Of a stretch of 64,000 nucleotides of DNA, positions 12,457 to 51,245 are shown one piece after another. The position numbers were made by a program, and so were the translations under genes. The notes under the pieces are model-generated. The model was given only the letters and a program-made list of their open reading frames with translations. It was not told the origin of the DNA and did not search any database. The stretch is from Porphyrobacter sp. ULC335 (GTDB taxonomy: Bacteria > Pseudomonadota > Alphaproteobacteria > Sphingomonadales > Sphingomonadaceae), in assembly GCF_025917005.1 (NCBI RefSeq), contig NZ_CP078091.1:1922001-1986000 (forward strand). Direction: 5' to 3'. Numbering within the stretch: position 1 is the first letter of the stretch; every line of letters starts with the position of its first letter.

Positions 12457-12475
12457 TTTCCCCTTCTTTCCCTTT

Positions 12476-12590
12476 CCCCTTGCGGGAGGGGGTTGGGGGG
12501 AGGGGGCTCTACGCCAGCGGCTCATCTGTTCTTGTAATGAAACGAGGCCTTACGGCCTCGCCCCCTCCCCCAGCCCCTCCCGCAAGGGGA
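12476..12590. repeat. Long imperfect inverted repeat with internal hairpin
   Basis: The left arm at about 12476-12506 (CCCCTTGCGGGAGGGGG...) and the right arm at about 12561-12590 (CCCCCTCCCCCAGCCCCTCC...) are near-perfect reverse complements around a 54-nt centre. The centre holds a second, perfect hairpin CGAGGCC-TTAC-GGCCTCG (12543-12560). It lies between two convergent genes. It looks like a dispersed palindromic (MITE/REP-type) element acting as a bidirectional terminator. Confidence 0.65.
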
Positions 12591-12605
12591 GGGGAGGCGC
12601 TTGGC

Positions 12606-26702: not shown

Positions 26703-27143
26703 TCAGGCCGCCAGCTCGATCGGTTCGTCCGCCATCAGCCGTGCCAGATCGAGCACCATGACCATGTCGTCGCCCAGCGGGGCAATACCTTCGAGGAAGT
26801 GGGTGATCGTTTCATGCCCCATTGCGTCGGGCTGCTGGAGCGTGCCCGCCTCGATCGAGACAATGTCGGCAACATCATGGACAATCAGCCCGCGCATCTG
26901 GCCTTCGTGTTCGATCACGATGATCGGGTTGCGGGGGGTGGCATCGGTCGGCGTCCAGCCGAGCCGTGCGGCAAGGTCGATCACCGGCAGCACCGCGCCG
27001 CGCAGGTTGACGACGCCCGCGACATAGTCGGGCACGCGCGGCAGACGGGTGACGGGCGACCATGCGCGGATTTCGCGCACAGTCATGATGTCGATGCCGA
27101 AGCGCTGGCTGGCGATGCCGAAGGTGATGAGTTCGTGGCGCAT
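26703..27143 (-). CDS. cheW: Chemotaxis coupling protein CheW
   Basis: This 146-residue single CheW domain begins 'LITFGIASQRFGIDIMTVREI'. It contains 'TRLPRVPDYVAGVVNLRGAVLPVIDLAARLG', the conserved NLRG turn that contacts receptor and CheA. It links MCP tips to CheA in the cytoplasmic signalling array. It is next to last in the operon, 22 bases after cheY. Confidence 0.95.
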   Translation of the reverse strand: MRHELITFGIASQRFGIDIMTVREIRAWSPVTRLPRVPDYVAGVVNLRGAVLPVIDLAARLGWTPTDATPRNPIIVIEHEGQMRGLIVHDVADIVSIEAGTLQQPDAMGHETITHFLEGIAPLGDDMVMVLDLARLMADEPIELAA

Positions 27144-27165: not shown

Positions 27166-27549
27166 TCAGTGGATCACGCGGCGCAGCGCGGCGGTGAGCT
27201 TGTCAGCATCGAACGGCTTGACGATCCAGCCTGTCGCGCCTGCATTGCGGGCGCGCTGCTTTTTCTCGTCGGAGCTTTCGGTCGTCAGCACCAGGATCGG
27301 GCGTTCTGCATGCAGCGCGCTGGTGCGCAATTTCTCGATGAGCCCGAACCCGTCCAGGCGCGGCATGTTGATATCGGTGATGATCACATCGACCTCGTTC
27401 GACGCGAGCCACTCAAGCGCTTCCTGACCGTCCTCGCATTGCTCGACTGCGAAGCCGCGGGACGTCAGGGCGCCAAGCAGCAGCGCGCGCATGGATGCGC
27501 TGTCGTCGACCGTGAGAACACGGATGGTGGCCGGGTTGCTGAATTCCAT
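27166..27549 (-). CDS. cheY: Chemotaxis response regulator CheY
   Basis: This 127-residue lone receiver domain has the acidic pair 'VDDSAS', phospho-acceptor Asp in 'VDVIITDINMPRLDGF', switch Thr in 'ILVLTTESSDEK' and the invariant Lys in 'GWIVKPFDADKL'. Phosphorylated by CheA, it carries the signal to a motor or other effector. I prefer the start at 27549 because GGAG sits six bases upstream; an in-frame ATG at 27561 would add four residues. The effector is unclear since no flagellar gene is in the window. Confidence 0.93.
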   Translation of the reverse strand: MEFSNPATIRVLTVDDSASMRALLLGALTSRGFAVEQCEDGQEALEWLASNEVDVIITDINMPRLDGFGLIEKLRTSALHAERPILVLTTESSDEKKQRARNAGATGWIVKPFDADKLTAALRRVIH

Positions 27550-27567
27550 GATGTGCTCCATTTGGTC

Positions 27568-28137
27568 CTAGAATAGCTCGACCGTCCCAAGTGCCGATTG
27601 CGGCCGCCCCAGTGGTTTCTGCGTAGGAGCGGTCTCTGCCGGCACGAGCCGCGCACGCACCTGCCCGCTGGCAGGACGGAACTGGATCCGGCGCGCCAGT
27701 GTGCCTTCGAGATCCTCGAACACCTTGGGAATGTTCTCGCGTTCGAGGAATTGGCGGGCGAAAGCGGCATTGGCCGTACCGATCGGGCTGAGATCGGGGT
27801 TGAGATTGGCGCCGCCGTAAAGCCGCGCGCGCATCCGGCTCTTGTGCGCGCCCATGCCCAGCATCTCGTTGATCAGCAGCTCCATGAGATAGAGCCCGTA
27901 ATCGCTGTCGAAAGCCTGATTGTGGACATGGGCGGGCGGCTCGGCGAGCAGGAAGTGGTTCATGCCCCCGACCCGCGCGAGCGGATCGAACAGGCAGGTG
28001 GCAACGCAGCTGCCCAGGATGGTGCTCATCTCGACGCGGGGATCGGTGCTGGCTTTGGCCTCGCCCTGCACGATGGTGACGCGGATCGCCTCGGGCAGAG
28101 TGCCGAAGCCGGGGGGAGGCGGGCTCATGGCGGTCAT
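27568..28137 (-). CDS. cheD: Chemoreceptor glutamine deamidase CheD
   Basis: This 189-residue protein deamidates specific glutamines on MCPs to glutamate, making methylation sites. The catalytic Cys is in 'TILGSCVATCLFD' and the His in 'GGMNHFLLAEP'. 'LYGGANL' and 'IGTANAAFARQFLE' are family motifs. Its start overlaps the end of cheB by four bases, showing translational coupling. Confidence 0.94.
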   Translation of the reverse strand: MTAMSPPPPGFGTLPEAIRVTIVQGEAKASTDPRVEMSTILGSCVATCLFDPLARVGGMNHFLLAEPPAHVHNQAFDSDYGLYLMELLINEMLGMGAHKSRMRARLYGGANLNPDLSPIGTANAAFARQFLERENIPKVFEDLEGTLARRIQFRPASGQVRARLVPAETAPTQKPLGRPQSALGTVELF

Positions 28138-29195
28138 GACAGACTGACCTTTGCGAGGGTGAAGATCGCCGGAGCGATCCGTTCGAGCGGGAGCACTTCG
28201 CGCGCGGCGCCCAGCTCGATGGCGGCGCGCGGCATGCCGAAGACGACGCAGCTCGCCTGATCCTGTGCGATGGTGCGCGCGCCGATGCTCGCGAGCTGGG
28301 CCATGCCCTGCGCACCGTCCTGGCCCATGCCGGTCAGCAGGATACCCAGTGCGCGCGCGCCTTGCGCTGCACCGATGGTGGTGGCGAGAGAGGCGAACAG
28401 CCGGTCGACGCTGGGGCGGTGGCCGGACACCGGATCGCCCTCGCGCAGGACACAGCGAAGCCCCAGCGCTCCGGCGTTGGCGACTTGCAGATGGCGGTCA
28501 TTGCCCGGTGCAAGCAGCACCGTGCCCCGTTCCAGGGGCATGTCGCTTTCCGCCAGCATCACCCGCGGGCGCACCGCGCGGTTGAAGGACTGCGCGATCG
28601 CTCCGGCAAAGCAGCCGTTGATGTGCTGTACGATCAGCGTCGGCGGGCAATCCTCGGGAAAATCGGCAAGTACGGTGTGGAGTGCCTCCACCCCGCCGGT
28701 CGATGCACCGATGACGATGATCTCGGGTAGCAAGGCCGAAGCTGGGGCGGCTGCAGGCGCAGCGGCGCGCGGTGCGGGGCGGATGGGATGGGGGGCGAGG
28801 CGCACCTTCGCCGCCTCTCGCACCATGTCCACCAATGCGCCGTCGTCGCTCTCGCCGGGACGCACCCGCAGCTGCGATTTGGCGATGCAGCCGACCGCGC
28901 CGAGTTGCAGGCCCCGCGCGGTCGCGCTCGCCCCCGCCTCGGTCGCGCCGGAAACGAGGATCACCGGGGTGGGGCGCAAGGCCATGATCTTTTCGAGGAA
29001 AGACAGGCCGTCCATTCCCGGCATCTCGATATCAAGCGTGACCACATCGGGATCGAGCGACTTCATCAGCTGGCGCGCTTCTGCGGCATCGGCGGCAGTA
29101 CCGGCAACGGTGATGTCGCTTTCGCGCTCAAGCCGGTGCTGGAGCAGCGCACGCATCAGCGGGCTATCATCGACAATCAGAACCCGGATGCTCAT
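28134..29195 (-). CDS. cheB: Chemotaxis methylesterase/deamidase CheB
   Basis: This 353-residue protein has an N-terminal receiver domain ('VVTLDIEMPGMDGLSFLEKIM' region, phospho-Asp near 56), an Ala/Pro-rich linker and a methylesterase domain. The full catalytic triad is present: Ser165 in 'IVIGASTGGVEA', His191 in 'IVQHINGC' and Asp293 in 'LTGMGQDGAQGM'. It removes methyl groups from MCP glutamates for adaptation when phosphorylated by CheA. It overlaps cheR by four bases and cheD by four bases. A second, catalytically altered paralogue lies at 43267. Confidence 0.96.
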   Translation of the reverse strand: MSIRVLIVDDSPLMRALLQHRLERESDITVAGTAADAAEARQLMKSLDPDVVTLDIEMPGMDGLSFLEKIMALRPTPVILVSGATEAGASATARGLQLGAVGCIAKSQLRVRPGESDDGALVDMVREAAKVRLAPHPIRPAPRAAAPAAAPASALLPEIIVIGASTGGVEALHTVLADFPEDCPPTLIVQHINGCFAGAIAQSFNRAVRPRVMLAESDMPLERGTVLLAPGNDRHLQVANAGALGLRCVLREGDPVSGHRPSVDRLFASLATTIGAAQGARALGILLTGMGQDGAQGMAQLASIGARTIAQDQASCVVFGMPRAAIELGAAREVLPLERIAPAIFTLAKVSLS

Positions 29196-30085
29196 GCCAC
29201 GCCTTTCCGCCGGTAAATTGTTGGCCCGACCGGATCGAGCAGCGCCGTGGCCGGGCCGCTGACACGTTCGGAGTGGCCGATGTAAAGATAGCCGCCGGGC
29301 ACCAACTGGCGGGCGAAACGCTCGACCAGCCGCTCCTTGGTGGGCACGTCGAAATAGATCATCACATTGCGGCAGAAGATCACATCGAACGGGCGCTGCA
29401 TCGGCCAGTCACCCATCAGGTTAAGCTCGCGGAAGCGCACCATCGCCTGCACGGCGGGATCGATGGCAAGACGTGGCTCGCTCTTGCCCTGTTCCGCCAT
29501 GCACCAGATGCGGCGCAGATTGTCCGGCAGGGCTTCCAGCGCACTCGCCGGGTAACTCGCTACTCGTGCACCCGCCAGCGCGTTGACCGAAATGTCGCTG
29601 GCGAGCGCCAGTAGTTTGCTGCGCGCGATCTTGAGACCTGCCGAGCGATCGGGTCCGAGCAGCACCATCAACAGCGTCCAGATTTCCTCGCCTGTCGAAC
29701 ACCCCGCCGACCAGATCCGCACTTCCTCATTCGCCTGTGCGCGGCGCACCAGATCGGGGCGCAAAACGGTTTCGAAGTGATCGAAATGGTGCGGCTCGCG
29801 GTGGAAATAGGTGTGGTTGGTGGTCAGCGCGGCAACCACCTCTGTCATCGTCCGCGCGTCGCCCTGCAATGCGTCGAGAAACGCACCAAAGCTCGTCAGC
29901 CCGCTGCGCCGCACCAGCGGGGCCAGCCGCGAATAGGCGAGCATTTTCTTGCGCTCGGTCAGCACGATCCCTGTTTCGGCATGGATCAGATCGGCGATGC
30001 GGCGGAAGTCGGCCTCGCTGTAGATGGCGGGGCTGACGCCGGGAACCATGCTATCGGCGGCCGCGGTGGCAGATGAGACGTGCAT
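29192..30085 (-). CDS. cheR: Chemotaxis protein methyltransferase CheR
   Basis: This 297-residue SAM-dependent enzyme methylates receptor glutamates. It has an N-terminal helical domain ('RIADLIHAETGIVLTERKKMLAYSRLAPLVR'). Its SAM-binding motif is 'VRIWSAGCSTGEEIWTLLMVL', and 'DVIFCRNVMIYFD' and 'YLYIGHSERVSG' are family signatures. The inserted beta-subdomain that can grip C-terminal receptor pentapeptides is present by length. Two MCPs here end in a matching xWxxF tail. Confidence 0.96.
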   Translation of the reverse strand: MHVSSATAAADSMVPGVSPAIYSEADFRRIADLIHAETGIVLTERKKMLAYSRLAPLVRRSGLTSFGAFLDALQGDARTMTEVVAALTTNHTYFHREPHHFDHFETVLRPDLVRRAQANEEVRIWSAGCSTGEEIWTLLMVLLGPDRSAGLKIARSKLLALASDISVNALAGARVASYPASALEALPDNLRRIWCMAEQGKSEPRLAIDPAVQAMVRFRELNLMGDWPMQRPFDVIFCRNVMIYFDVPTKERLVERFARQLVPGGYLYIGHSERVSGPATALLDPVGPTIYRRKGVA

Positions 30086-30087
30086 GG

Positions 30088-32214
30088 TCAGGCAGCTGCG
30101 GCCAGCGCGGGACTACCGATGGACCGGGCAGCCTTGCTGGCGATGAAGTCGACATCGACGATCAGCGCGACCTTGCCGTTGCCGAGGATCGTCGCCCCCG
30201 CCACAGAATCGATCTGGCGGTAATGCGCGTCGAGCGCCTTGATCACGAATTGGCGTTGATCGGTGATCGTGTCGACCAACAAGGCGGCGCGGCCGTGACC
30301 TTCGGTCTCGACCAGCACCAGCACACCTTCGCACGGATTGCTGACCGCCTTGTTTGCGCCGGTCAGCAATCCGAGCGGCACGATCGGCACAAAGCTTCCC
30401 CGCGCGTTCAGCATTTGCGCGGAGGTCCCCATTCCCTTGACGTCGGCAGGGGTGGGGCGGAGGCTTTCGATCACGTGGGTGAGCGGGATCACCAGCGATT
30501 GGTCGCCGACCTGCACAATCATGCCGTCCGAAATCGCCAGAGTCAGCGGCAGGGCGAGAGAGAAAGTGGTGCCCTTTCCGGGCGTGCTTTCGATGGTGAT
30601 GCGCCCGCCCAGCTCCTTCACGTTTTGCTTGACCACATCCATGCCCACGCCGCGGCCCGAGATGTTCGAGACCTGCGCGGCGGTGGAGAAGCCGGGGGCG
30701 AAGATCAGCTGGTTGATTTCATCGTCCGACAGCAGCGCCTCTGGCGCAACGAGGTCATTGGCGATCGCCTTGGCCAGCACGCGGTCACGGTCGATCCCGC
30801 GCCCGTCGTCGCTGATGCGAATGATGATGCGCCCGGCCTTTTGTTCGGCGGAAAGAGTAAGCGTGCCTTCCGGGTCCTTGCCCGCCGCGCGGCGTTCTTC
30901 CGGCGGTTCGATCCCGTGGTCGACCGCATTGCGGATGAGGTGCGTCATCGGTTCGCTCAGCCGCTCGATCACGGTCTTGTCGAGCTCGGTGGTCTCGCCC
31001 GCGACCTCCAGCTTCACGTGCTTGCCGGTGCTGCTGCCGAGCTCTCGCAGCAGGCGCGGCACGCGCCCGAACACCGAGCTGATCGGCTGCGCGCGGAACG
31101 CCATGGCGTGTTCCTGGATGTCGCGCACCAGCGTCTCGATCAGCGCCAGTTCCTCGATATGGGCGAGGTTCTCGTTGGTGAGGCGCTGGGCGAGCATGGC
31201 CTGCGCGATCACCAGCTCGCCCACGCCGTCGATCAGCATGTCGAGCTTCTTGAGGTCGATCCGGACGGACTGGTTCGCGGCGGGCGGCGCTGCTGCGGGG
31301 TTGGGCGGGGCAGCGGGTCCGCTGGTGCCGGGATCGGACTTGGCAGGGGCTTGCGGCGGCTCACCTCCGATGTGATGTGCCACGGCCGCAGCCGAGGCGA
31401 CCTGCACGGCAACACGCGGCGGCGGCATCGCGCTGTCAGCACCATAGGAAAGCGCGACCTCGTCGCCCACGAAGTCGAAGATTTCCGCCACCGCCTCGCG
31501 GGTGACATTGCCGGGCATCCTGAACGTCCAGCCGAGATAGCCTTCCCCGACAGCCAGGCGTTCAAAAGTCGGGACTGCAGAGAAATCGCAAGCCTCGCAA
31601 GTACCGCCGAGATCGGTAAGTTCGCGCAGCCACAGCAGTGGCTCGCTGCCCTTGGTCATCGCCCCGGCGTGGGGGCGGATATGGACGAGCCAGGTCTCGG
31701 GCACGGCAGGCGCAGGGGCAGGCGCGGCGAGCTCATCAAGCAGCGCGTCGAGATCATCGAAAGCAGGCGCAGGCGTGGGAACGGGCGCAGGCGCCGGCGT
31801 AGGCGTGGGGGCCGGGGCAGGGCTGGCCAAGCCGGCACCGCCTGCCTGTGCGGCCTCAAGCCGTTCGAGCAGGTCGGCATCCTCAGGCGGAGCGGTCCCG
31901 CCGCGCGCCGCTTCGACATGATCGCGCAGGCAATCCAGCGCCTGCAGCAGCAGATCGACCAGCACGGGTTCCACCGGCACCTTGCCCTCGCGGACGTCGG
32001 CAAGCAGGGTTTCGAAGCCGTGGGTGAAGGCTTGCAGCGGCAAGTGGCCGAAAGCCCCTGCGCCGCCCTTGATCGAGTGCACCCCGCGAAAGATCGCATT
32101 GATCGTCTCGCTGTCATGGGTGCCTTCGCGGCAGGCGGCAAGGCCCGCCTCGGTGGCTTCGAGCGCTTCTTCGCATTCGACGAAGAAGATCTGCTGGATG
32201 TCGTCTTCGGTCAT
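30088..32214 (-). CDS. cheA: Chemotaxis histidine kinase CheA
   Basis: This 708-residue kinase has the complete domain order. The P1 Hpt domain carries phospho-His in 'FRGVHSIKGGAGAFG' (about residue 48). An Ala/Pro linker leads to a P2-like region ('WLVHIRPHAGAMTKGSEPLLWLREL'-type strands, about residues 175-260). P3 dimerisation is 'IDLKKLDMLIDGVGELVIAQA'. The P4 ATPase has N-box 'HLIRNAVDHGIE', G1 'DDGRGID' and G2 'GRGVGMDVVK'. The P5 CheW-like tail contains 'NARGSFVPIVPLGLL'. It phosphorylates CheY and CheB. Its start overlaps the STAS gene by four bases. Confidence 0.96.
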   Translation of the reverse strand: MTEDDIQQIFFVECEEALEATEAGLAACREGTHDSETINAIFRGVHSIKGGAGAFGHLPLQAFTHGFETLLADVREGKVPVEPVLVDLLLQALDCLRDHVEAARGGTAPPEDADLLERLEAAQAGGAGLASPAPAPTPTPAPAPVPTPAPAFDDLDALLDELAAPAPAPAVPETWLVHIRPHAGAMTKGSEPLLWLRELTDLGGTCEACDFSAVPTFERLAVGEGYLGWTFRMPGNVTREAVAEIFDFVGDEVALSYGADSAMPPPRVAVQVASAAAVAHHIGGEPPQAPAKSDPGTSGPAAPPNPAAAPPAANQSVRIDLKKLDMLIDGVGELVIAQAMLAQRLTNENLAHIEELALIETLVRDIQEHAMAFRAQPISSVFGRVPRLLRELGSSTGKHVKLEVAGETTELDKTVIERLSEPMTHLIRNAVDHGIEPPEERRAAGKDPEGTLTLSAEQKAGRIIIRISDDGRGIDRDRVLAKAIANDLVAPEALLSDDEINQLIFAPGFSTAAQVSNISGRGVGMDVVKQNVKELGGRITIESTPGKGTTFSLALPLTLAISDGMIVQVGDQSLVIPLTHVIESLRPTPADVKGMGTSAQMLNARGSFVPIVPLGLLTGANKAVSNPCEGVLVLVETEGHGRAALLVDTITDQRQFVIKALDAHYRQIDSVAGATILGNGKVALIVDVDFIASKAARSIGSPALAAAA

Positions 32215-39750: not shown

Positions 39751-41022
39751 TCAGGCCCGCGCTTGGCTGCGGTAGGCGCTGAGGAACACCAGTTCGCGCA
39801 GTTGGGAATCTTCGGGGAGGTCGAGCCCGGACAAATCGGCAATGCTGACGATCCGCTCGTCGTCATTGCCTTGGGCAAGAGCGATGCGGTGCGGCAGGAT
39901 GCGCTCGCCCGATTCCAGCGAGTAAAAGGCCTGCACCACCGGCCGCATCGGATCTTTGCGATCCTCGTCGATCACCATCGCCAGCTTGCGGCTGCTCAGC
40001 ACCACAAAGGCGCCGACCGGGTAGAATCCGACGGTTTCGATGAACTGGCGCAGGATGTCTTCGTCGAAGGCGCCTTTCTGTGCGCGCATTGCCTCCACGG
40101 CGGCGGCCGGATCAAGCTTGGGGATCTTGTCGGTGCCGGCCATCAGGAATTCGAAGGTGTCGCAAATGGCGGCCATGCGGGCGACGACCGGGATGTCGGT
40201 TCCTGCAAGGCGCTTGGGATAGCCCCGGCCGTCCATCCGCTCGTGGTGGAGGAGGCAGCCGTCAAGCACCAGCTGCGGCAGGCCGCCGTCGTTCTCAAGC
40301 GCACGGTGGCCCAGAAGGACATGGCTTTGCCAGACGCGCTCATCAAGATTGCGATAATTGCCGCCGGGCGGATCGCCAGCGACCGGCAGATAGATCACGC
40401 CGATGTCCAGCAGCAGTCCCGCGAGCCCGCAATTGTGGATGTCCTGCGCGGGCAGTTTCATGCGGTCCGCCAGCGCCACCATCAACGCGCTGACCGACAG
40501 GGCATGGCGGAAAATCTGCTCGTTCTTGAGCTTGCACCGCATGAGCCCGCTGAAGGCCTGCGGGTTGCGCCGGACCGAGGCGAGAATATCGCTGACAACC
40601 GGCTCCACCTTGCGCACATCAAGCGCCTTGCCCAGCCGTGCGGCGATAAAGGCCTTGTTGAGCTTCTCCCTTGCCTGATCGGCAATCGCGGCGGCGCTTT
40701 CGAGTTCCTGCGTCATCGAGACCGGCTGCGTGGCTGACTGCTGCACTGCACTGCGCTGCCTGATGCTCTTGATCCGCGACGTTGCGGGTGAGTCCGGTTG
40801 CGGTGCCGCGGGTGCCTTCGTATGGGCGGGCGAGGACATGTCCTTGCCCTTCGCCGTGTCGATCACGACCGCGCGCAAGCGGCTCTCCTTGATCGCGGCG
40901 AGCTTTTCCGTGTCCTCGATCAGGAACTTTGCTTTCCAGAACGGATGGTCGAACCAACCGCCCTCGAACTTGTGGACGAACATGCCCAACTGAAGTTCGG
41001 AAACTGCGATCTGCTTCAACAT
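39751..41022 (-). CDS. HD-GYP domain protein with DUF3391 N-terminus and altered HD motif
   Basis: This 423-residue protein has DUF3391 (residues 1-62, 'MLKQIAVSELQLGMFVHKFEGGW') and a C-terminal HD-GYP domain. The domain keeps 'HHERMDGRGYPKRLAGTDIP' and 'ARMAAICDTFEFL'. The HDIGK motif reads LDIGV, losing the metal-binding His. HD-GYP enzymes hydrolyse c-di-GMP with a di- or tri-iron centre, so activity may be lost or weakened, leaving a binding or effector role. The start at 41022 matches the family N-terminus. It lies between chemotaxis receptors and may link taxis to c-di-GMP. Confidence 0.88.
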   Translation of the reverse strand: MLKQIAVSELQLGMFVHKFEGGWFDHPFWKAKFLIEDTEKLAAIKESRLRAVVIDTAKGKDMSSPAHTKAPAAPQPDSPATSRIKSIRQRSAVQQSATQPVSMTQELESAAAIADQAREKLNKAFIAARLGKALDVRKVEPVVSDILASVRRNPQAFSGLMRCKLKNEQIFRHALSVSALMVALADRMKLPAQDIHNCGLAGLLLDIGVIYLPVAGDPPGGNYRNLDERVWQSHVLLGHRALENDGGLPQLVLDGCLLHHERMDGRGYPKRLAGTDIPVVARMAAICDTFEFLMAGTDKIPKLDPAAAVEAMRAQKGAFDEDILRQFIETVGFYPVGAFVVLSSRKLAMVIDEDRKDPMRPVVQAFYSLESGERILPHRIALAQGNDDERIVSIADLSGLDLPEDSQLRELVFLSAYRSQARA

Positions 41023-41130
41023 GGAGTTTGCCCTACTTCCGGGGATTGCGTTCGGGTTTTTAGAGATTTGTTCTTTGCAATTGGCTGGCACGGTCCCCGG
41101 CAAATTACCTAGCTACGGGCAAGGGGCTGA

Positions 41131-43035
41131 TCAGAATTCGCTCCAGTCGTCCTCGTCTAAGTCGGTTGTGAGGGCTGGTGCGGGTTTGCGGGCGAGGTTG
41201 CCGGTGACTGGCGGCGGTGCGGGCTGTGCGGGCTGTGCGGGCTTGCGGGGGGCGGGGGCTATGCGCGCGGCTGGAGCCGGAGCGCGGGCGGGTGCGGGTG
41301 CGACGTAGCTTGCAGGTGCTGCCTGTTCTGCGCCGCTCACCCGGAACTGGGCGACCAGCTCGCTGAGACGCTGCGCCTCGGAGGACAGGCTGCGGGTCGC
41401 AGCGGTGGATTGTTCGACCATGGCAGCGTTCTGCTGGGTCATGCGGTCGATGGTGCCGACTGCGACGTTCACCTGCTCGAGGTTGCTGGCCTGCGCGGCG
41501 GTGGTCTCGGCGATCGCGCCGACCTGCTCGGTGACCGATCCGACCTGCGCGACGATCTCGGCGAGCAGCGTGCCGGTCTCGCCGACAAGGCTCACCCCGT
41601 CGCCGACATGGGCGGTGGACTTGTCGATCAGCGCCTTGATGTCGCGCGCGGCCTCGGCAGAGCGCTGGGCGAGGGCGCGGACCTCGTTGGCGACCACGGC
41701 AAAGCCCTTGCCCGCCTCGCCGGCACGCGCTGCTTCGACACCTGCGTTAAGCGCGAGCAGGTTGGTCTGGAACGCGATGCCGTCGATCACGTCGATGATC
41801 TGGGTGATCTCGCGCGCGGAGTGCTCGATCGCGCCCATTGCGGCGACCGCCTTGCCGACCACGGCCCCGCCTTCGGTGGCGCGGGTGTGGGTCTTGGCGA
41901 TGGCGGTCTTGGCGGCGATGGCGTTGTCGGCGGACTGGCGGGTGAGGCTGACGGTGGTTCCGACCGATGCGGCGGTCTCTTCAAGGCTGGCGGCCTGCTG
42001 TTCGTTGCGCAGGGCGAGGTCTTCGGATGCGGCGCGGATCTCGTCGGAACTGGTGCGCACGCCGCTGGCGGTGGAGCGCACCGCACCGATCATCGCCTCA
42101 AGCTTGCCGACCGAGGTGTTGAACGCATCCTGCAACCGCTGATGCTCGCCCGGCGGCATGCCGCTGATCCGGTGAGTCAGATCACCCTCGGCAAGGCGGT
42201 CCAGCGCGCCGGAGAGAGTTTCGACAACTTCACCCTGTTCCTCAGAACGCGCCTTGTCCGATTTGAGCGCGGCGCGGAATGTCTCGATCGCGCGGCTCAT
42301 CGTGCCGATCTCGTCCTCGCGGTGGATCGTGGTCACCCCTGCATCATGGTCGCCCGCGGCCATGTCGTGCATGGTTTCGGCGGTGATGTAGATCGGCCAG
42401 AGCACCTTGCGCCGGAACGCAAGGTAAGCGCCTGCCAGAACACCCAGCACGAGCAGCACGGCCACAAAGCCACCGGCAATCACCAGCATCTGGATGACTG
42501 CATTCTGTTCCTTTGCCGCAGCCGTCAGGCTTTCGCTTTGCGCCACCAGATCGCCATTGGCGCTGCGGTGCGCGCGATAGATCAGCAGAAGCCTGCGATG
42601 CGAGGCTTTCATGGCCGGTTCGTCCCAGCGCTTGGCGGCGGGTTTCAGTGAGGTGTTGATCTCGTCCCAGAAGGCCTTGCTGGTCTCCTGCGCATACTTG
42701 TCCAGATCCGCCTTGAGCTTGTCTGAAAGCGGTCTCTGCGCCCAGCGGCGTTCGGCTGCCCAGTACTCCTCTTCCAGCTTCCTCAGACGCTCCTCGTTGA
42801 TGGCATAGGCATCCCGGTGGATCGCCATGATGCTGGCGTTGCTGAAGGCTTCGACGAGAAACATCGGCGGGGGCAGAATATCGGCGCGGAAATCGGAGAG
42901 CATTTCCTCCTCGTTATCGAGCGCGCCGCCATTCCGTATCTGGTTCATTCCGATGCCCGCGGCCAGCAGGATTGCCGCCACGAACCCGCCGAGCGTCATT
43001 GCGCCGACCCGCGAATATCTCTCGATCGTCATCAT
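41131..43035 (-). CDS. Methyl-accepting chemotaxis protein with 4HB-like sensor and xWxxF tail (MCP-3)
   Basis: This 634-residue receptor has helix 1 (about residues 12-30), a ~160-residue periplasmic helical bundle rich in Glu/Arg/Trp, helix 2 (about 198-220), a HAMP domain and a signalling hairpin. From '[15 protein letters not shown]' onward it is almost identical to MCP-1 at protein and DNA level, including the C-terminal DWSEF. The Met at 43035 is preferred over the longer frame because it precedes the membrane helix directly. It probably uses the CheA/CheW of the neighbouring operon. Confidence 0.93.
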
Positions 43036-43156
43036 GCTTTGCCCTGTTGGGCCCGCGGACCTGCGCCGACACGGGCGAATTACAGGGTCCGGCTTACATG
43101 CGGTTCTGGTAAGGTGTTTTTGCCATGCGCCTATGCGCAAGCCCCTAAGCGAAGCG

Positions 43157-43266: not shown

Positions 43267-44301
43267 ATGGCCAATGTGAGAGTACTGGTAGTCGACGATT
43301 CCGCAGCAATGCGTGCATTGTTCTGCGACATCCTCGACAATGCCAAGGGCGTGGATGTGTGCGGCACGGCCAAGAACGCCGATGAAGCACGCGACCAGCT
43401 CGACAAGCTGAAACCCGACGTGCTGACGCTTGATGTCGAGATGCCGGGCATGAGCGGGATGGAGTTCCTCGAAGAGGTGATGACGACCCGGCCGATGCCG
43501 GTCATCATGCTCTCCAGTATCACCCAGGCCGGAACCGGCACCGCGCGGCGCGCGATCGAGCTGGGGGCGGTGCATTGTTTTCCCAAGCCGCTCCACACTT
43601 CGCGCGAGGAGTTTGATGCGACCGTGCGGCAGCTGGGCGATATCGTTCTGAAGGCCGCCGCGGGAGAGTTGCAGCCCGGCGGCGAGAGCGCAGGGGCAGG
43701 CTCGGGCGGCGGCGCGCGCTATCGCAGCGATGGGCGGATCGTCGCGCTCGCTTGCGGGGCCGCGGGGATCGAGACTGCACGGCAGGTGCTGGCTGCCTAT
43801 GATGCGGCTTGCCCGCCCACGATCGTGCTGTTCGATGCCGAACCTGCAGCAGTCGAGAACGCAGTGCGCGCGATGCGTCATTCGCTCCCCTGCCAGTTGG
43901 GCGATGCGGTCGACGGCGTGACGCTGGAGCCGGGCAAGGTCTGGCTCGCGCACGACCCGACTCGCCACGTTATCGTCGAGCCGGGCGAGCCGCCGCGCCT
44001 GCGACTGGTCGAGCGCGATCCGGTCAATGGCTGTCGCCCCTCTGCCGACCTGTTGTTCGGCTCGCTCGCGCGCACCGGACTTCCAGCACTTGGCGGTCTG
44101 CTGACCGGCAGCGGCACGGATGGTGTGCGCGGCCTTGGCATCCTTTCCGAGACCAAGGGCAAGGTGTTCGTGCAGCGTCCGGCCGACTACGCCCCCCGTG
44201 ACCGCTATGATGCTGTACGTGCGCAAGGCCTTGATCTTGCCGATCTGCGGCAAGAGGCTGTCCCCGATTGGATTTTGGAGGCGACCAACGCGGATAGTTA
44301 A
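43267..44301 (+). CDS. CheB paralogue with lost methylesterase active site (pseudo-CheB)
   Basis: This 344-residue protein has an intact receiver domain: 'VLVVDDSAAMRALF', phospho-Asp in 'DVLTLDVEMPGMSGMEFLEEV', 'VIMLSS' and 'HCFPKP'. A Gly-rich linker and a CheB_methylest-like domain follow. Aligned with the CheB at 28134, the catalytic GAST motif is ACGA (Gly164 in place of Ser), the 'QHI' His is Asp ('LFDAE'), and only the final Asp ('LTGSGTDGVRG') remains. It should lack esterase activity and may act as a receiver, decoy or phosphate sink on the pentapeptide-bearing MCPs. It is divergent from MCP-3. Confidence 0.85.
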   Translation: MANVRVLVVDDSAAMRALFCDILDNAKGVDVCGTAKNADEARDQLDKLKPDVLTLDVEMPGMSGMEFLEEVMTTRPMPVIMLSSITQAGTGTARRAIELGAVHCFPKPLHTSREEFDATVRQLGDIVLKAAAGELQPGGESAGAGSGGGARYRSDGRIVALACGAAGIETARQVLAAYDAACPPTIVLFDAEPAAVENAVRAMRHSLPCQLGDAVDGVTLEPGKVWLAHDPTRHVIVEPGEPPRLRLVERDPVNGCRPSADLLFGSLARTGLPALGGLLTGSGTDGVRGLGILSETKGKVFVQRPADYAPRDRYDAVRAQGLDLADLRQEAVPDWILEATNADS

Positions 44302-44405: not shown

Positions 44406-47400
44406 ATGGTCGAAGTGCGTTCGCGTAAGCCTGCTGCTGGTAAGGTTGTTTCATTTGGCAAGCTGGCGGCTTCGGGGCTTTTGAGCTCCACGGCGCTTCT
44501 CCCGGCGATCAGCGCAGTCGCTGCGGCCGGTCTGATGCTCGCGCCGGGTGCAGCCCATGCGCAGGATCTCGGCGCGGGTGGCGCGGGCGGCGGCGGCGGC
44601 GGTGCGGGCGGCGTTTCAAGTTCGACGGGTGCCGGTGGCCCGGGTGCCGGTGGCGTAGCTGCCGGAGCGGGCGGCGGAGGAGGTGGCGCTGGTAGCCCAG
44701 CTGGCGCGGGCGGCGCCGGCGAAGGTGGAGCGGCCGGCGGTGCGGGCGGCGTTGGCAACTTTTCCGGCCCCGGCCAGAACGGCCAGAATGCGACCACACC
44801 AAATGGCGGTGGTGGTGGTGGTGGTGGCGCCACATTCACGCGTTCCAACACCTTCAATGCCACCGTTTCTGAAACGAACTTTACAACCAATTGGTCGGGC
44901 GGCGGTAACGGCGGCGCGGGCGATGGGTCAGGATCGGGCGGCGGCGGCGGGGCCGGGGGTGCGCGCCGCCTCACGTTCAATGCGGTCTATAACCTTGGCC
45001 TTTCTGGCACTACGAATATCCGAGGCGGCGCTGGTGGCAATGGTGGCGCTGGTGGCGCGACAGGAAATGGCGGCAATGGCGGCGATGCTGGACCCGGCAT
45101 GCTCCTGATCCAAACCAGCACCACGAACACGGGCGCAGGCTTGTTGGTGAGGGGCGGTGCGGGCGGAAATGGCGGCGCCGGAGTCGTTGCAGGTTTTGGC
45201 GGTAACGGCGGCGCTGGCGCGATCCAAATCGGCGGCACGCTCAACAACGCCGGCACCCTTATTGGTGGCAATGGCGGCGCAGGTTCGGTCGCGGGCCGGG
45301 GCGGCGTTGGTCTGATCGGCACAAACATCACGCTCAACAATACGGGCACCATTATCGGTGGCCAGTCGGGCGACTTTTCGTCGCGTGCGCCCGCGATTCG
45401 CTTTGCGGGCACGAACACCGTTAATGCCATCGGCATCACGATCGGCGGTATCGACATCGCTTCGGGTACGACGACCTTCAACCCCGGCGCGGGCTTCTTC
45501 AGCATCGACAGCCTGTCGGGCTTCGGTGATCTTCAGGTCACCTCGGGCACGCTGATCATCGGCAATTCCAGCGCGCCTCCGACGGCTTTCAGTGGCGCGA
45601 TCTCGGGCAATGCCAACCTGCTCAAGACCAGCAGCAGCACGCAGGTGCTGCTCGGCGACAACACCTACACCGGGACCACCACCATCGATGGCGGTTTCCT
45701 CGTTCTGTACGACGGCAGCCTTGCCGGACCGGTCATCAACAACGCCGGCTTCTCGGTCGGCGGTGTCACCGGTAGCCGCCTGTTCGGCGATCTGACCAAC
45801 AATAGCTTTGCCGAGATTTTCGGTCAGGTTGATGGCGCGGTTCAGAACAATGGCCGGATCACCACTCTCGGCAACAGCACCTATCTCGGGACGGTCACGC
45901 AGGCTGTCGGCGGGCAGTTCGAACTCAACAACTTTGACGTCAGCATGGGCGCACTTGCGGGCGGCGGCACAGTGCAGCTGGGTTCGGGGACGCTGACAAT
46001 CGGCACGACGAGCGGCGCGACCGGCTTCTCGGGCCAGATTTCGGGCAGCGGCGGCGTGACCAAGGTTGGTGACAGCACGCAGGTCTTCGTCGGCGACCAG
46101 ACCTATACGGGGCTCACCCAGATTGATGGCGGCTTTCTCGTGGTGGCGGGCGGCAGCCTTGCCGGATCGGTGCTCAACAATTCGCGCTTCATCCTCGATG
46201 GTCGCGTGTTCGGTGACTTCACCAACAACAACATTGCGGAAATCGATGGCCGGGTTGACGGGAACACCGTCAACAATGGCCGCGTTATTCTGCTCGACGA
46301 CAGCACCTTTGTCGGATCGTTCACGCAGAGCATTTCGGGCTCCAGCCTCGAACTCAACGATTTCGATGCCAGCGTCGGCGGCCTTGGCGGCGGCGGCACC
46401 GTGCAACTGGGCGCGGGCACGCTGACGATCAACAACGACAGCGGCGCGATCGGCTTCTTCGGCCAGATTTCGGGCAGCGGCGGGGTCATCAAGGAGGGCG
46501 CCGGCACGCAGGTCTTCGCCGGTGCGCAGACCTATACCGGCCTCACCGAAGTGCGGGGCGGCAATCTGGTCCTGTTCGGCGGCAGCCTTGCCGGATCGGT
46601 CCTGAACAACGCGACCTTTACCATGGACGGTGGCAGCCGCGTGTTCGGTGGCCTCACCAATAATGGTCTGGCACTGCTTTCCGGCCGGATCGATGGCGCA
46701 ATCTTCAACAACGCAACGATCGAGAGCATCGGGGACAGCGTCTTTATCGACCGCTTCACCCAGGCCGCGGGTGCGACCTTCGACCTCGATGGCTTTGACG
46801 CGACCCTTGGCAGCCTCGACGGCGCTGGCTCGATCCTGCTCGGGTTGGGCAACCTGACAATCGGCACCGACAACACGTCTTCGGCCTTCAGTGGCACGAT
46901 TGCGGGCGGCGGTGACCTGATCAAGATGGGTACCGGCACCTTCACGCTGTCCGGCGTGAACTCCTCTTCCGGCGTGACGCAGGTGGACGAAGGCACGATG
47001 GTGCTGGCTGCCAGCGGGCAGATTTCAGGTCTTGTCCGCAACAACGCCACCTTCATCAATGCGGGGGCCGTCAATGGCGGGTTCCTGAACTCCGGCAACC
47101 TTACTTCGACCGGTACGATCCTTGGCGGGCTTACCCAGTTTACTGGCACCAATGCGATCGTCTCCGGCGTCCTTAACGGCGCAATCAACAGCGGCGGCAC
47201 GCTGATCGTCAACGGCGATCTGTCGAGCGACGGCTTCCTCACCAACAGCGGCAGCGGCTCTGTGCAGGTGCTGGCTGGGACGCGTTGGACGGGCCTGACC
47301 GGCATCGACAACACCAGCACCGTCAATCCCGGCTTTACCGTCGCAGGCGAGTTGGTGAACGTCGGCACCATCACCAACCGCGCCGGTGCGACATTCAACA

Positions 47401-50400
47401 TCGCCGGCAGCGGCATCGTGAGCACGAGCTTCCTCACCAACCACGGTACGATGCTCAACAACGGCAGCCTCACCGCCGACATCTTGAATACGGGCACGAT
47501 CACGAACGCGGGCAGCTTGTCGAGTGACTTCGTCAATGACGGCACCCTGATTTCGACCGGCTTCTTCACCGGTGCGCTCGCCAATAATGCGGGTGGCACT
47601 GCCAACCTTGCGGGTGTGTTCGACGGTTTCATTGTCAACTCGGGGACGGTGACGCTCACCGGAACCACCACTGGCATCATGGGCTTTGATCAGACCGGCA
47701 CGGGTATCTTCAACCTCGCCGGATTTGACACCACGATCGGCCGCCTTTCGGGCGCCGGTCAGGTGCAGCTGGGCTCGGCGACGCTGACCACTGGCGGCAG
47801 CAACGCCTCTAGCACCTTTAGCGGCGTGATCTCGGGCTCGGGCGCATTGACCAAGGTGGGCAGCGGCACGCTGACCCTGAATGGAGCGAACACCTTCACA
47901 GGCCTGACCACCGTTTCAGACGGTGGACTGCTCCTTGATTCCGCTGGTACACTGGCGGGTGCGGTCCTTAACAATGCAATCTTCCTCAACGCAGGCACGG
48001 TAAACGGCCTGGTCACCAATAATGGTGATTTGGGCTCGGCGGGGACCCTCGATGGAGGTCTGATCAACAATGCGGGCGCAACGGCCAGCCTTGCTGGTAC
48101 TGTAAACGGCGGGATCACCAACGCTGGCACCGTCCGCGTTATCGGCCCGCTGACCGCCAGCGGGGCCTTCAATCAGACCAGCACCGGCAGCTTGCGTTTG
48201 CAAGGCTTTGCGGCCTCGCTCGGCAGCCTTGCCGGAGCAGGCACAGTCACCCTGGGCGGCGGCGCGCTGACCACCGGGACAGACAACACCTCGACCACCT
48301 TCGGCGGTGTGATCTCCGGTGCGGGCACCCTGACCAAGGTCGGCACCGGCACCTTCACGCTGACCGGCGTGAACACCTATACCGGAACGACCTTCGTCAA
48401 CGCCGGTACGCTGGCGCTTGCTGCGAGCGGCGTGATTGCCGGTCCGGTGCGCAATGCTGCGATCTTCACCAATGCTGGCACGGTCAATGGATCGTTGCAG
48501 ACCTTCGGCACGGCAACCAACTCCGGCACGATCAATGGGGACGTGCGCGCGGAAACCGGGGGCACCTTCACCAATCAGGTGGGCGGCACGGTCAACGGCA
48601 ACGGATTCAGCTTTGCCACGCTTAGCAATGCGGGCACGTGGAATGGTGCCTTCGTTATCAATGGCGGTGGAACGATCACCAACACCGGTGTGTGGAGCAA
48701 CGGGTCGGCCAACTCCTCGCTCATCACCAACGGGCTGTTCGACAACTCGGGCACATTGAGCGGGCTCGCAGTCAGTCTGAACGGGACGAACGCGCGGCTG
48801 ATAAACCGCGCGGGCGGGACTATCGCGCTCAACGCAGGGCAAGCGCTGTTCATCTCGAGCGGCGCCCAAGTCACCAACGCTGGCGCGATCACTGCAACCG
48901 TGGGCAACTCGGGCACCTTTATCTCGACCGGGACGGTCAACGGATTGCTGTCCAATCAGGCGGGCACCGCGATCGCCCAGCTGGCCGGTGTGATGAACGG
49001 TAACATCAACAACGCCGGTACTATCACGCTGACCGGCACCACCACGGGGATCGGCATCCTCGAACAGACTACGTCCGGTGTGTTCAACCTTGGCGGGTTC
49101 AACACCACGATCGGCGTGCTGTCGGGTGCGGGCCAGATGAACCTGGGTGCTGGCACCCTCACTACGGGTCGCGATGCGGTCAATTCGCAGTTCAGCGGTG
49201 TGATTGGCGGCACCGGCGGCCTTGTGAAGGTCGGCACTGGCGGCCTCGTTCTGACCGGCACCAACACCTACACCGGCGGCACAACGATCAGTGGCGGTGT
49301 GTTGCAGCTGGGCGGTGGCGGGACCACGGGTTCGATCATCGGTCCGGTGATCAACAACGGCACGTTGTTGGTGAACCGTTCCGATGCCTACACCTTTGCC
49401 GGCAACATCAGCGGCACAGGGATGTTCGTGCAGGATGGCACCGGTACCACCACGCTGACCGGGACCAACACCTACAGCGGCGGCACTCTGATCAGCCGCG
49501 GGCGTCTGGTGGGCAACACCACTTCGCTGCAGGGCGCGATCCAGAACAACGCAGCGCTCGAATTCGCGCAAACCACGGCCGGCACTTACGCCGGATCGAT
49601 TGCGGGTGCGGGCCTGTTCGACAAGACCGGCGTTGGGCTGCTGACGCTCACGGGCAACAGCAGCGGCTTCACCGGCGGCACCTTCGTTCGCGGCGGCGAG
49701 CTGCGCGTGAACGGCAACCTGTCGCGTTCGGTTGTCACGGTGCAGACGGGCACGACCCTGTCGGGCACCGGCGTGATCGGCGGTCTGATCGCACAAAGCG
49801 GCAGCACGGTTGCACCCGGCACCAGCCCGGGCACGCTCAACGTCAATGGCAACGTCACGCTCCAGGCGGGCAGCACGGTGCAGTTCGAAGTCAGTGCCAC
49901 TGGCCCCTCCGACCGGATCCTCGCGACCGGCACGGCGGCGCTTGGCGGTACGGCCGCGCTCACCAACCTCGGCGGCACCTACGCCTTCAATAGCGAGATC
50001 GTGCTGTTGCAGGCTGATGGCGGGCGCACCGGGACCTTCAGCGCCACCACCGGCACGGCCGGGTTCGGCATCCTTTACCGGCCCGAACTGGTCTACACCG
50101 CCAACCAGGTCCGTCTGCGCATGGCAGCCAACACGCTTGGCAACATCGTCGGCAACACGGCGCTTACCGCCAACCAGCGTTCGGTGGTGAACCGCATCGA
50201 TGGCGCGGTGGCCGCGGGTTACAACCCGCAACCGCTGTTCAACATCTATGCCCTGCCGACCGCGCAGCTGCCGGGTGCCTTCGACCAGCTCTCGGGCGAG
50301 GTCTATGCGACCGCGGCCGGCGTCGGGATCGAGCAGGAGCGTCTGCTGCGTGAAGCGGTGCTGGGCCGTGCTGCCTCGGCGGCGATGGCGGCACGCACGA

Positions 50401-51245
50401 CGCCCGGTGCGGGTTCGGGCGTGGGCGCCTGGGGCCAGCTGTTCGGCGGTTGGGGCGATGGCGATAGCGACGGCAATGCCGCCGCCTTCGACACCGACCG
50501 TATGGGCTTCGTCACCGGCCTTGATTACGGCAAGGCGAACGAGAACGGCAGCTGGCGCGCGGGTGTGTTCGGGATGCAGATCCAGAGCGATGTCACCATC
50601 GACGCACGCGGATCGGCGAGCGAGGTCGAGCAGTCGGGTGCTGGTGCTTACGCATCGCTCACCACCGGCGGGTTCGGCGTGACGCTGGGCGGTTATCTGA
50701 CCGAGGTTGATCTGCGGGCCTTCCGCAACATCAACCTGCCCGGCTTTGCCGAGACCAATGTCGGCGTGACCGAGGGCAAGGGGCGTCAGGCCTTTGCCGA
50801 GCTGTCCTACACGATCGAGGCCGGCAAGGCGCTGATCCGTCCCTTCGTGGCCGGTTCGATCGGCACCTTCAAGCTGGATGGTCTGCGCGAGACAGGCGGC
50901 GCTGCGGCGCTTGATGTCGCCCGCCAGAGCTACTCGACCGGCACGGTGACCGGCGGGATCGACGGATCGGTCAAGGTCGGCAAGGTCCTGCGTCTGGGCG
51001 GTTCGCTCGGTGCGCGTGCCCAGCTGGGCGACCGCGATCCGCAGGCCCTGATCGCGCTGGCCGCCGCTCCGCAGCAGGCCTTCGCCATCGACGCCGCGCA
51101 GCTCGACGAAGTGGCCTTCGCCGGACGCTTCGACGCCGTGCTGGAACTGGAGGAGAACCTCATGATCTCGGTCGGATACACCGGCCTGATCGGCTCCACC
51201 CAAACCGACCACGGCGCTCGCGCAACGGTACAAGTGCGGTTCTAA
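44406..51245 (+). CDS. Giant type V autotransporter with Gly-rich head and beta-strand repeats
   Basis: This 2279-residue protein has an extended signal peptide (about residues 1-56, ending 'AAHAQ'). A PGRS-like Gly/Ala/Asn-rich region runs to about residue 310. A long beta-helical passenger follows, with nine autotransporter-associated strand repeats of the type 'LTKVGTGTFTLTGVNTYTG', and a C-terminal translocator barrel (from about residue 2000, 'GAWGQLFGGWGDGDSDG') ends in Phe ('ATVQVRF'). The first four repeats are spaced 438, 429 and 432 bp apart. No protease or adhesin signature is visible. It likely forms a surface fibre for adhesion or aggregation. It has its own upstream gap and a strong terminator. 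Confidence 0.93.
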   Translation: MVEVRSRKPAAGKVVSFGKLAASGLLSSTALLPAISAVAAAGLMLAPGAAHAQDLGAGGAGGGGGGAGGVSSSTGAGGPGAGGVAAGAGGGGGGAGSPAGAGGAGEGGAAGGAGGVGNFSGPGQNGQNATTPNGGGGGGGGATFTRSNTFNATVSETNFTTNWSGGGNGGAGDGSGSGGGGGAGGARRLTFNAVYNLGLSGTTNIRGGAGGNGGAGGATGNGGNGGDAGPGMLLIQTSTTNTGAGLLVRGGAGGNGGAGVVAGFGGNGGAGAIQIGGTLNNAGTLIGGNGGAGSVAGRGGVGLIGTNITLNNTGTIIGGQSGDFSSRAPAIRFAGTNTVNAIGITIGGIDIASGTTTFNPGAGFFSIDSLSGFGDLQVTSGTLIIGNSSAPPTAFSGAISGNANLLKTSSSTQVLLGDNTYTGTTTIDGGFLVLYDGSLAGPVINNAGFSVGGVTGSRLFGDLTNNSFAEIFGQVDGAVQNNGRITTLGNSTYLGTVTQAVGGQFELNNFDVSMGALAGGGTVQLGSGTLTIGTTSGATGFSGQISGSGGVTKVGDSTQVFVGDQTYTGLTQIDGGFLVVAGGSLAGSVLNNSRFILDGRVFGDFTNNNIAEIDGRVDGNTVNNGRVILLDDSTFVGSFTQSISGSSLELNDFDASVGGLGGGGTVQLGAGTLTINNDSGAIGFFGQISGSGGVIKEGAGTQVFAGAQTYTGLTEVRGGNLVLFGGSLAGSVLNNATFTMDGGSRVFGGLTNNGLALLSGRIDGAIFNNATIESIGDSVFIDRFTQAAGATFDLDGFDATLGSLDGAGSILLGLGNLTIGTDNTSSAFSGTIAGGGDLIKMGTGTFTLSGVNSSSGVTQVDEGTMVLAASGQISGLVRNNATFINAGAVNGGFLNSGNLTSTGTILGGLTQFTGTNAIVSGVLNGAINSGGTLIVNGDLSSDGFLTNSGSGSVQVLAGTRWTGLTGIDNTSTVNPGFTVAGELVNVGTITNRAGATFNIAGSGIVSTSFLTNHGTMLNNGSLTADILNTGTITNAGSLSSDFVNDGTLISTGFFTGALANNAGGTANLAGVFDGFIVNSGTVTLTGTTTGIMGFDQTGTGIFNLAGFDTTIGRLSGAGQVQLGSATLTTGGSNASSTFSGVISGSGALTKVGSGTLTLNGANTFTGLTTVSDGGLLLDSAGTLAGAVLNNAIFLNAGTVNGLVTNNGDLGSAGTLDGGLINNAGATASLAGTVNGGITNAGTVRVIGPLTASGAFNQTSTGSLRLQGFAASLGSLAGAGTVTLGGGALTTGTDNTSTTFGGVISGAGTLTKVGTGTFTLTGVNTYTGTTFVNAGTLALAASGVIAGPVRNAAIFTNAGTVNGSLQTFGTATNSGTINGDVRAETGGTFTNQVGGTVNGNGFSFATLSNAGTWNGAFVINGGGTITNTGVWSNGSANSSLITNGLFDNSGTLSGLAVSLNGTNARLINRAGGTIALNAGQALFISSGAQVTNAGAITATVGNSGTFISTGTVNGLLSNQAGTAIAQLAGVMNGNINNAGTITLTGTTTGIGILEQTTSGVFNLGGFNTTIGVLSGAGQMNLGAGTLTTGRDAVNSQFSGVIGGTGGLVKVGTGGLVLTGTNTYTGGTTISGGVLQLGGGGTTGSIIGPVINNGTLLVNRSDAYTFAGNISGTGMFVQDGTGTTTLTGTNTYSGGTLISRGRLVGNTTSLQGAIQNNAALEFAQTTAGTYAGSIAGAGLFDKTGVGLLTLTGNSSGFTGGTFVRGGELRVNGNLSRSVVTVQTGTTLSGTGVIGGLIAQSGSTVAPGTSPGTLNVNGNVTLQAGSTVQFEVSATGPSDRILATGTAALGGTAALTNLGGTYAFNSEIVLLQADGGRTGTFSATTGTAGFGILYRPELVYTANQVRLRMAANTLGNIVGNTALTANQRSVVNRIDGAVAAGYNPQPLFNIYALPTAQLPGAFDQLSGEVYATAAGVGIEQERLLREAVLGRAASAAMAARTTPGAGSGVGAWGQLFGGWGDGDSDGNAAAFDTDRMGFVTGLDYGKANENGSWRAGVFGMQIQSDVTIDARGSASEVEQSGAGAYASLTTGGFGVTLGGYLTEVDLRAFRNINLPGFAETNVGVTEGKGRQAFAELSYTIEAGKALIRPFVAGSIGTFKLDGLRETGGAAALDVARQSYSTGTVTGGIDGSVKVGKVLRLGGSLGARAQLGDRDPQALIALAAAPQQAFAIDAAQLDEVAFAGRFDAVLELEENLMISVGYTGLIGSTQTDHGARATVQVRF

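Follow-up and report, generated by a model that had tools for sequence, protein, structure and literature searches.

Why would a bacterium that carries a CheB with a complete catalytic triad also keep a second CheB whose catalytic residues have been replaced? This question is raised by a gene of the window, i.e., the whole 64,000-nucleotide stretch of Porphyrobacter sp. ULC335 DNA analyzed here. An earlier note, made from the sequence alone, had described this gene as a pseudo-CheB (hereafter pCheB) in which the catalytic serine is replaced by glycine and the histidine by aspartate, the phosphorylation residues of the receiver and the final aspartate of the triad being retained. Both parts of this description are borne out by alignment to the canonical CheB of the same window (the companion CheB).

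A CheB paralogue with a broken triad and a complete receiver

The features of pCheB and its companion are listed below; frequencies refer to the 75 pCheB sequences presented in the next section.

43267..44301, forward strand: pseudo-CheB (pCheB), 344 amino acids, ATG start, open throughout to the stop; receiver at residues ~1-112, linker at ~113-152, predicted dead methylesterase domain at ~153-344
43294..43299, forward strand: acidic pair Asp10-Asp11 of the receiver, kept (DD in 75/75)
43432..43434, forward strand: phospho-acceptor Asp56 of the receiver, kept (D in 75/75)
43474..43476, forward strand: Glu70, clade-diagnostic, Lys or Arg in canonical CheB (E in 75/75)
43585..43587, forward strand: Lys107 of the receiver, kept (K in 75/75)
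43756..43758, forward strand: Gly164 replacing the catalytic Ser (Ser165 of the companion CheB); GASTGG becomes ACGAAG...
43834..43836, forward strand: Asp190 replacing the catalytic His (His191 of the companion CheB); VQHI becomes LFDA
44119..44121, forward strand: Asp285, third triad residue, kept (Asp293 of the companion CheB); TGMGQDGA becomes TGSGTDGV (D in 75/75)
28134..29195, reverse strand: canonical CheB, full Ser-His-Asp triad

With Ser83, all the receiver phosphorylation residues are present (D10, D11, D56, S83 and K107), and the Ser-His-Asp triad is incomplete (Gly164, Asp190 and Asp285). pCheB has the two-domain architecture of CheB, an N-terminal receiver followed by a C-terminal CheB_methylest domain, both above the Pfam cut-offs: Response_reg (PF00072) is matched at 75.3 bits and CheB_methylest (PF01339) at 75.3 bits against a cut-off of 24, the corresponding scores of the companion CheB being 83.4 and 185.6 bits. 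pCheB misses the NCBIfam cut-offs for CheB (198.6 vs. 293 bits for NF001965 and 155.6 vs. 342 bits for NF009206), of which the companion passes the former (356.4 bits) and falls narrowly below the latter (332.1 bits). Genome-wide, CheB_methylest is matched four times, by the companion CheB, by pCheB and by two proteins encoded outside the window, and pCheB is the weakest of the four (75.8 bits). Collectively, these sequence features support that pCheB is an esterase-dead CheB with an intact receiver switch. The companion, termed functional in the earlier note, does possess the full triad, from which its activity is presumed.

An AlphaFold model of pCheB (17 sequences) has a mean pLDDT of 84.6 and a pTM of 0.60, with residues 136-149 below 50. 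Its best structural matches are CheB structures, and the predicted model shows the CheB fold: the C-terminal domain matches the CheB esterase domain 1chd with a Z of 27.3 and an rmsd of 2.0 over 191 residues, and the receiver matches 3t8y with a Z of 19.1 and an rmsd of 2.4 over 130 residues. For the whole protein, the rmsd to CheB structures is 10.5 to 10.8, which shows that the domain arrangement either differs from that of CheB or is uncertain. Linker and domain arrangement of the model are of low certainty (pTM 0.60).

A probable old clade of CheB paralogues in Sphingomonadaceae

A first set of 59 CheB-like sequences was obtained by searching 199 genomes of the family and reading the matched regions. 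Sorted solely by their greater resemblance to the window pCheB or to the window CheB, all 24 sequences nearer to pCheB lack at least one triad residue and all 35 nearer to CheB have the three of them. The 24 sequences come from at least 23 of the 199 family genomes, the matches read being the higher-scoring ones. In this alignment of orthologues, which the earlier note had suggested as a check, triad loss is common to every one of the 24 sequences picked by similarity alone, and a strain-specific defect or a sequencing error was rejected since the orthologues share the loss.

Extension to 396 genomes of the order, named genome contigs and further regions raised the set to 235 distinct CheB-like sequences; the triad is incomplete in 75 of them. 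These 75 pCheB are hosted by at least 61 genomes, all in Sphingomonadaceae and spanning 17 genera, plus named contigs. Among the hosts are Novosphingobium nitrogenifigens, N. rosa, N. endophyticum, N. beihaiensis, Chakrabartia godavariana, Sphingobium fluviale and Sphingomonas strains, and two contigs are named to the order Sphingomonadales only. Triad loss in pCheB is far more general than the single gene first described. Within the genus of the window, its occurrence is patchy, at least 20 further genomes having no match at E 1e-60.

In other families of the order, 28 genomes were matched, and the complete triad is present in each of the 10 that were read (L223-L232). Outside the order, 28 of 289 searched genomes were matched, and the 10 loci read (L245-L254) likewise all carry the triad (nine by pattern, L248 by reading). 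No pCheB was thus found in the 20 genomes read of the 56 matched outside the family. At L248 (G636), the full-triad CheB has Arg in place of the receiver Lys. A mirror case of pCheB occurs at L036 (G036), positions 11679-12707, where the receiver set is broken (E, N, D, A, R) in a companion CheB that has the full triad, the receiver of the adjoining pCheB being intact; at this locus, the matches to CheA and CheR are split over frames.

In three trees, the 75 triad-incomplete sequences fill one entire side of a single branch, supported at 99/93 (59 rows), 96 (187 rows) and 100 (95 rows), the far side holding other CheB lineages and other orders. None of the 112 complete-triad rows of the 187-row tree, a FastTree reconstruction omitting 48 of 235 rows (complete-triad CheB of other orders), falls on the pCheB side. 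As the 75 sequences were selected for a broken triad, the finding is the absence of complete-triad rows among them; the triad columns were kept in the alignments, many inner forks are weak, and L201_9306 (G342) sits on a very long branch. Several independent dead copies in place of one clade are not favored, given the single branch side in the three trees. pCheB would thus be an old clade of CheB paralogues in Sphingomonadaceae, which would have arisen by one split from the CheB line, been inherited along with the che operon and turned into a pseudoenzyme.

Within this clade, the triad is broken in different ways. Ser is lost in 33 of the 75 sequences, His in 66, both in 24 and Asp in none. 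A Sphingomonas-type group (n=12) has Asp or Glu at the Ser position and keeps His in 9 members, a Novosphingobium-type group (n=28) retains Ser, its His position being taken by Gln, Asn, Pro or Ser, and the window group (n=12) has lost both. Since the 95-row tree requires at least four changes for Ser and three for His, the clade probably became inactive along more than one route and, as the breakage differs between sublineages, the triad of its ancestor may still have been wholly or partly intact.

The receiver residues follow another pattern. The DDDSK set is complete in all 75 pCheB, the 160 complete-triad sequences having DDDSK (153), EDDSK (6) or ENDAR (1). Position 70 is Glu throughout pCheB, compared with Lys (72) or Arg (23) in the 95 canonical CheB, and Pro106 is present in 75/75 and Phe105 in 71/75 pCheB.

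Could the enzyme have survived through a rebuilt active site, so that pCheB is still an esterase or a deamidase? Asp285 is invariant (75/75), His234 is found in 73/75 sequences and Ser in 42/75, and some residual chemistry is conceivable in the 42 proteins that keep Ser. However, His234 is no novelty, being equally conserved in canonical CheB (95/95), and the other motif residues of the CheB active site are mostly gone: Gly163 is retained in 20%, Thr166 in 23% and Met321 in 5% of pCheB, and Gly320, in the aromatic-Gly-Met-Pro region, in none (0/75), the Gly-Met pair being present in all 160 complete-triad sequences. We regard a rebuilt active site as very improbable.

Constraint on both domains

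pCheB and the companion CheB were compared in ten matched genome pairs using Nei-Gojobori dN/dS; genomes of a single genus recur in five of the pairs, which are not independent of one another, and several dS exceed 1. In all ten, dN/dS is lower for pCheB (0.020-0.124) than for CheB (0.036-0.222). For the receiver, it is lower in nine pairs and higher in genus g25; for the C-terminal domain, it is lower in nine and equal in g71, with values of 0.02-0.12 for pCheB. Both domains of pCheB are under purifying selection in these close pairs. Across the whole clade, in contrast, divergence is faster in pCheB than in CheB (mean distance 0.877 vs. 0.675). Conservation is lower than in CheB for the C-terminal domain (mean top-residue frequency 0.541 vs. 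0.625) and higher for the receiver (0.744 vs. 0.700). Faster clade-wide divergence and a less conserved C-terminal domain would also be compatible with a role that is relaxed or particular to certain lineages. Judged on these sequences, pCheB qualifies as a pseudoenzyme in the sense of a protein whose catalytic residues are lost and whose gene is kept by selection across species.

A simpler reading is that of a decaying duplicate devoid of function. The sequences were collected as open frames, a procedure that disrupted copies would escape, and therefore open frames are not countable as evidence against decay. The loss of the che operon around pCheB in three genomes, described below, would fit such decay; the low dN/dS, the single branch and the invariant clade-specific residues speak against it and leave this reading barely credible. 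A pseudogene was also rejected for the window copy, whose frame is open and whose dN/dS is 0.05-0.10 against five relatives of the genus.

The strong constraint on the receiver, the most constrained part of the protein, would be expected if pCheB were a phosphate sink, i.e., a kinase competitor draining phosphoryl groups from CheA, and hence from CheY and CheB, to end the signal, with a passive C-terminal domain. From sequence, competition for CheA, which the earlier note had envisaged, is possible. Receivers of this kind have been described: CheY6 of Rhodobacter sphaeroides is reported as a phosphate-sink response regulator (PMC2924250), and the CheY-like domains of CheA have been proposed as sinks (PMC10782961). 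Like pCheB as understood here, they are phosphorylatable and their job need not be enzymatic. Unlike them, pCheB has a full and constrained CheB-like C-terminal domain, for which a pure sink would have no use. The CheZ model, whose absence would also suit a sink, has no match in 21 genomes; this is weak evidence for a missing phosphatase, because the CheZ model is also blank in the Caulobacter control and Pfam misses FliM here. In G000 and its relatives, FliM seems divergent, the Pfam FliM model being blank despite a strong FlhA. A non-flagellar system, to which the 0 FliM matches in 13 of 13 genomes of the genus could have pointed, was rejected on account of this FlhA match (E 1.5e-212 in G000). 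Draining phosphate as the sole function of pCheB appears rather unlikely to us, given the constrained C-terminal domain and the persistence of the protein in three genomes without the CheA of its operon.

Association with the che operon

The window carries a che operon and a divergent receptor gene in addition to pCheB and the companion CheB.

26703..27143, reverse strand: CheW, by domain assignment
27166..27561, reverse strand: CheY-like single receiver protein, by domain assignment
27568..28137, reverse strand: CheD, by domain assignment
29192..30085, reverse strand: CheR, by domain assignment
30088..32214, reverse strand: CheA, with Hpt, H-kinase_dim, HATPase_c and CheW domains
41131..43140, reverse strand: MCP (HAMP and MCP signal domain), divergent neighbor of pCheB, tail DWSEF

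CheA (30088..32214) is the presumed kinase for pCheB. As stated in the earlier note, pCheB is divergent from an MCP with an xWxxF tail. By eye, this MCP and that at 32518-33999, both tailed, are near-identical in their signaling half and tail, which suggests recent duplication or gene conversion; in genome G471 (L188), the interval between the two tailed MCPs looks deleted. Further neighbors are a DUF3391 and HD-domain protein at 39751-41103, adjoining the MCP on the strand of the che operon, and a Gly-rich, by eye autotransporter-like ORF of 2279 amino acids at 44406-51245, whose start lies 104 bases beyond pCheB in the same orientation.

The idea that pCheB evolved with its divergent MCP is not specifically supported. 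Taking as neighbor the closest che gene that is upstream or divergent and no more than 1500 bases away, pCheB lies ~3-65 bases after cheW in 30 of the 75 cases, is divergent from cheA in 19 and shows the window arrangement, divergent from an MCP gene, in 18 only. In 3 further cases it follows a CheA-like gene beside an MCP (a protoglobin MCP in the one read with Pfam), in 2 a cheY-like gene, and in 3 no che gene is in range, one of these (G471) being 1746 bases from an MCP. Because cheW, a divergent cheA or a divergent MCP alternate as the nearest che gene, the association of pCheB is with the che operon. The small loci L051, L052 and L053 (G024, G109 and G170) consist of an MCP, a CheA-like protein, pCheB and a 110-amino-acid protein; at L051, the MCP is of the protoglobin type, the CheA-like protein has no Pfam Hpt match, and the 110-amino-acid protein belongs to no Pfam family. 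At L188 (G471), the cheR of the che operon (2746-3738) has an in-frame TAA, and the nearby pCheB is intact.

In the ten counted pCheB genomes of the window's genus, the number of PF01339 matches equals that of PF01739 (CheR) matches plus one, compared with equal numbers in the two counted genomes of the genus without pCheB. The distances of pCheB and CheB are correlated (Mantel r 0.83, 63 pairs, 0 of 2000 permutations as high), from which it follows that the pair has been largely inherited together.

Receptor tails as a possible target

It had also been proposed that pCheB might bind MCP tails. Phosphorylated pCheB could then occupy the DWSEF tails, or the methylation helices, and exclude CheB and CheR, as a natural dominant negative. 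At least one tailed MCP is encoded at 46 of the 49 pCheB loci with an MCP, compared with 39 of 76 other loci; a small number of loci enter this comparison twice, and the 76 are a mixture that includes distant orders and other che clusters. Related operons without a nearby pCheB (e.g., L055, L059, L063 and L064) are tailed too. With such mixed comparison loci and tailed operons lacking a nearby pCheB, no link of co-evolution was drawn between tails and pCheB.

Li et al. (2021; PMC8609364) report that phosphorylation of CheB favors an open form and that, in their model, the tail-binding site, located at the end of helix 5 and in the linker (positions 128, 132, 134, 135 and 138), is offered by open CheB only. 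At the matching positions, the window pCheB has L, A, E, L and G, compared with R, K, R, L and H in the companion CheB; the Salmonella residues at the compared sites are R128, R132, R134 and H138. A basic residue at the 128 equivalent is found in 13 of 75 pCheB vs. 91 of 95 CheB, and at the 134 equivalent in 16 of 75 vs. 51 of 95. Tail binding is weakened as a hypothesis by this loss of most of the modeled basic contacts. The loss is not decisive, the site being plastic (PMC8609364) and not universal among CheB, the Salmonella-type R...H pair being rare in both groups (2/75 pCheB and 5/95 CheB) and the net charge of the wider segment being not lower in pCheB (4.00 vs. 3.65). In addition, an inactive S164A phospho-mimic of Salmonella CheB is reported in the same source to still bind receptors with reduced affinity. 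On balance, the missing contact residues lower the standing of tail competition, which we consider improbable.

Retention of pCheB without its operon

In G381 and G419, no che gene is found within ~9 kb of pCheB, and each genome has one CheA elsewhere. In G382, only a cheW and an MCP stub stand beside pCheB, and no CheA was detected with PF02895. No FlhA match was obtained in G382 and G419. These orphan pCheB retain DD, D, E70, S, F105, P106 and K, and dN/dS between those of G381 and G419 is 0.095. The presence of pCheB in G382 without CheA implies either that the operon was lost recently or that the phosphate donor is a kinase of another type.

A proposed phosphorylation-gated binding protein

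As a pure sink fails to explain the constrained C-terminal domain and the orphan copies, a binding protein is favored. We propose, with about even confidence, that pCheB is phosphorylated by CheA and acts in signaling as a non-enzymatic, phosphorylation-gated binding protein. Beyond the intact receiver, the lost triad and the selection, the steps of this proposal are what we infer. The receiver would take phosphate from the CheA of the operon, and phosphorylation would open the interface between the receiver and the C-terminal domain, as in CheB. The latter domain, devoid of the triad, would be unable to demethylate or deamidate receptors, so that the output would likely be a protein-protein contact. 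pCheB would thereby constitute a second, non-enzymatic phospho-output of the CheA branch, or a brake on it.

A bolder version, which we put forward tentatively and with clearly less than even confidence, is that CheB was converted across the whole clade into a dedicated non-enzymatic phospho-signaling protein whose partner lies outside receptor methylation and which can outlive its own CheA, CheB and CheR and even the flagellum, since G382 and G419 have no FlhA match and no che operon and G381 no operon.

Domain order, receiver residues and fold are common to pCheB and known CheB (Salmonella 1a2o and P. atrosepticum 6ymz). pCheB differs by the absence of the Ser-His-Asp triad and of the Gly-Met of the FGMP region, by Glu instead of Lys or Arg at receiver position 70 and by the loss of most basic tail-contact residues. 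The proposed protein is reminiscent of CheV (PMC12691637), in which a phosphorylatable receiver is joined to a binding, non-catalytic domain; this second domain is CheW-like in CheV, whereas it is CheB-derived in pCheB.

Among the best matches of searches in the open-access literature, which covered neither subscription papers nor preprints, no account of a CheB that is inactive by nature was encountered. A possible counterpart may already have been listed. For Erythrobacter sp. 3-20A1M, Table 2 of PMC9723273 includes an extra 'cheB', F7D01_01705, with the annotation of an ordinary methylesterase. Its tag follows that of cheB (F7D01_01685) by 20 numbers and comes immediately after F7D01_01700 (pilI), which we guess to be the CheW of the operon. 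By tag order, this resembles the cheB...cheW-pCheB order of 30 of the 75 loci.

Significance for chemotaxis in Sphingomonadaceae

CheB is usually treated as an adaptation enzyme; here, an apparently dead and selected CheB stands beside one with a complete triad. Genome annotations can thus overcount methylesterases by one in many Sphingomonadaceae, and models of adaptation in this family would miss a phosphate acceptor or regulator. The clade markers Glu70, Pro106 and the broken triad make pCheB easy to recognize. Binding may be a function of the CheB scaffold in its own right and, if pCheB is indeed a dedicated non-enzymatic protein, che operons would have, in addition to CheY and CheB, a third type of response-regulator output.
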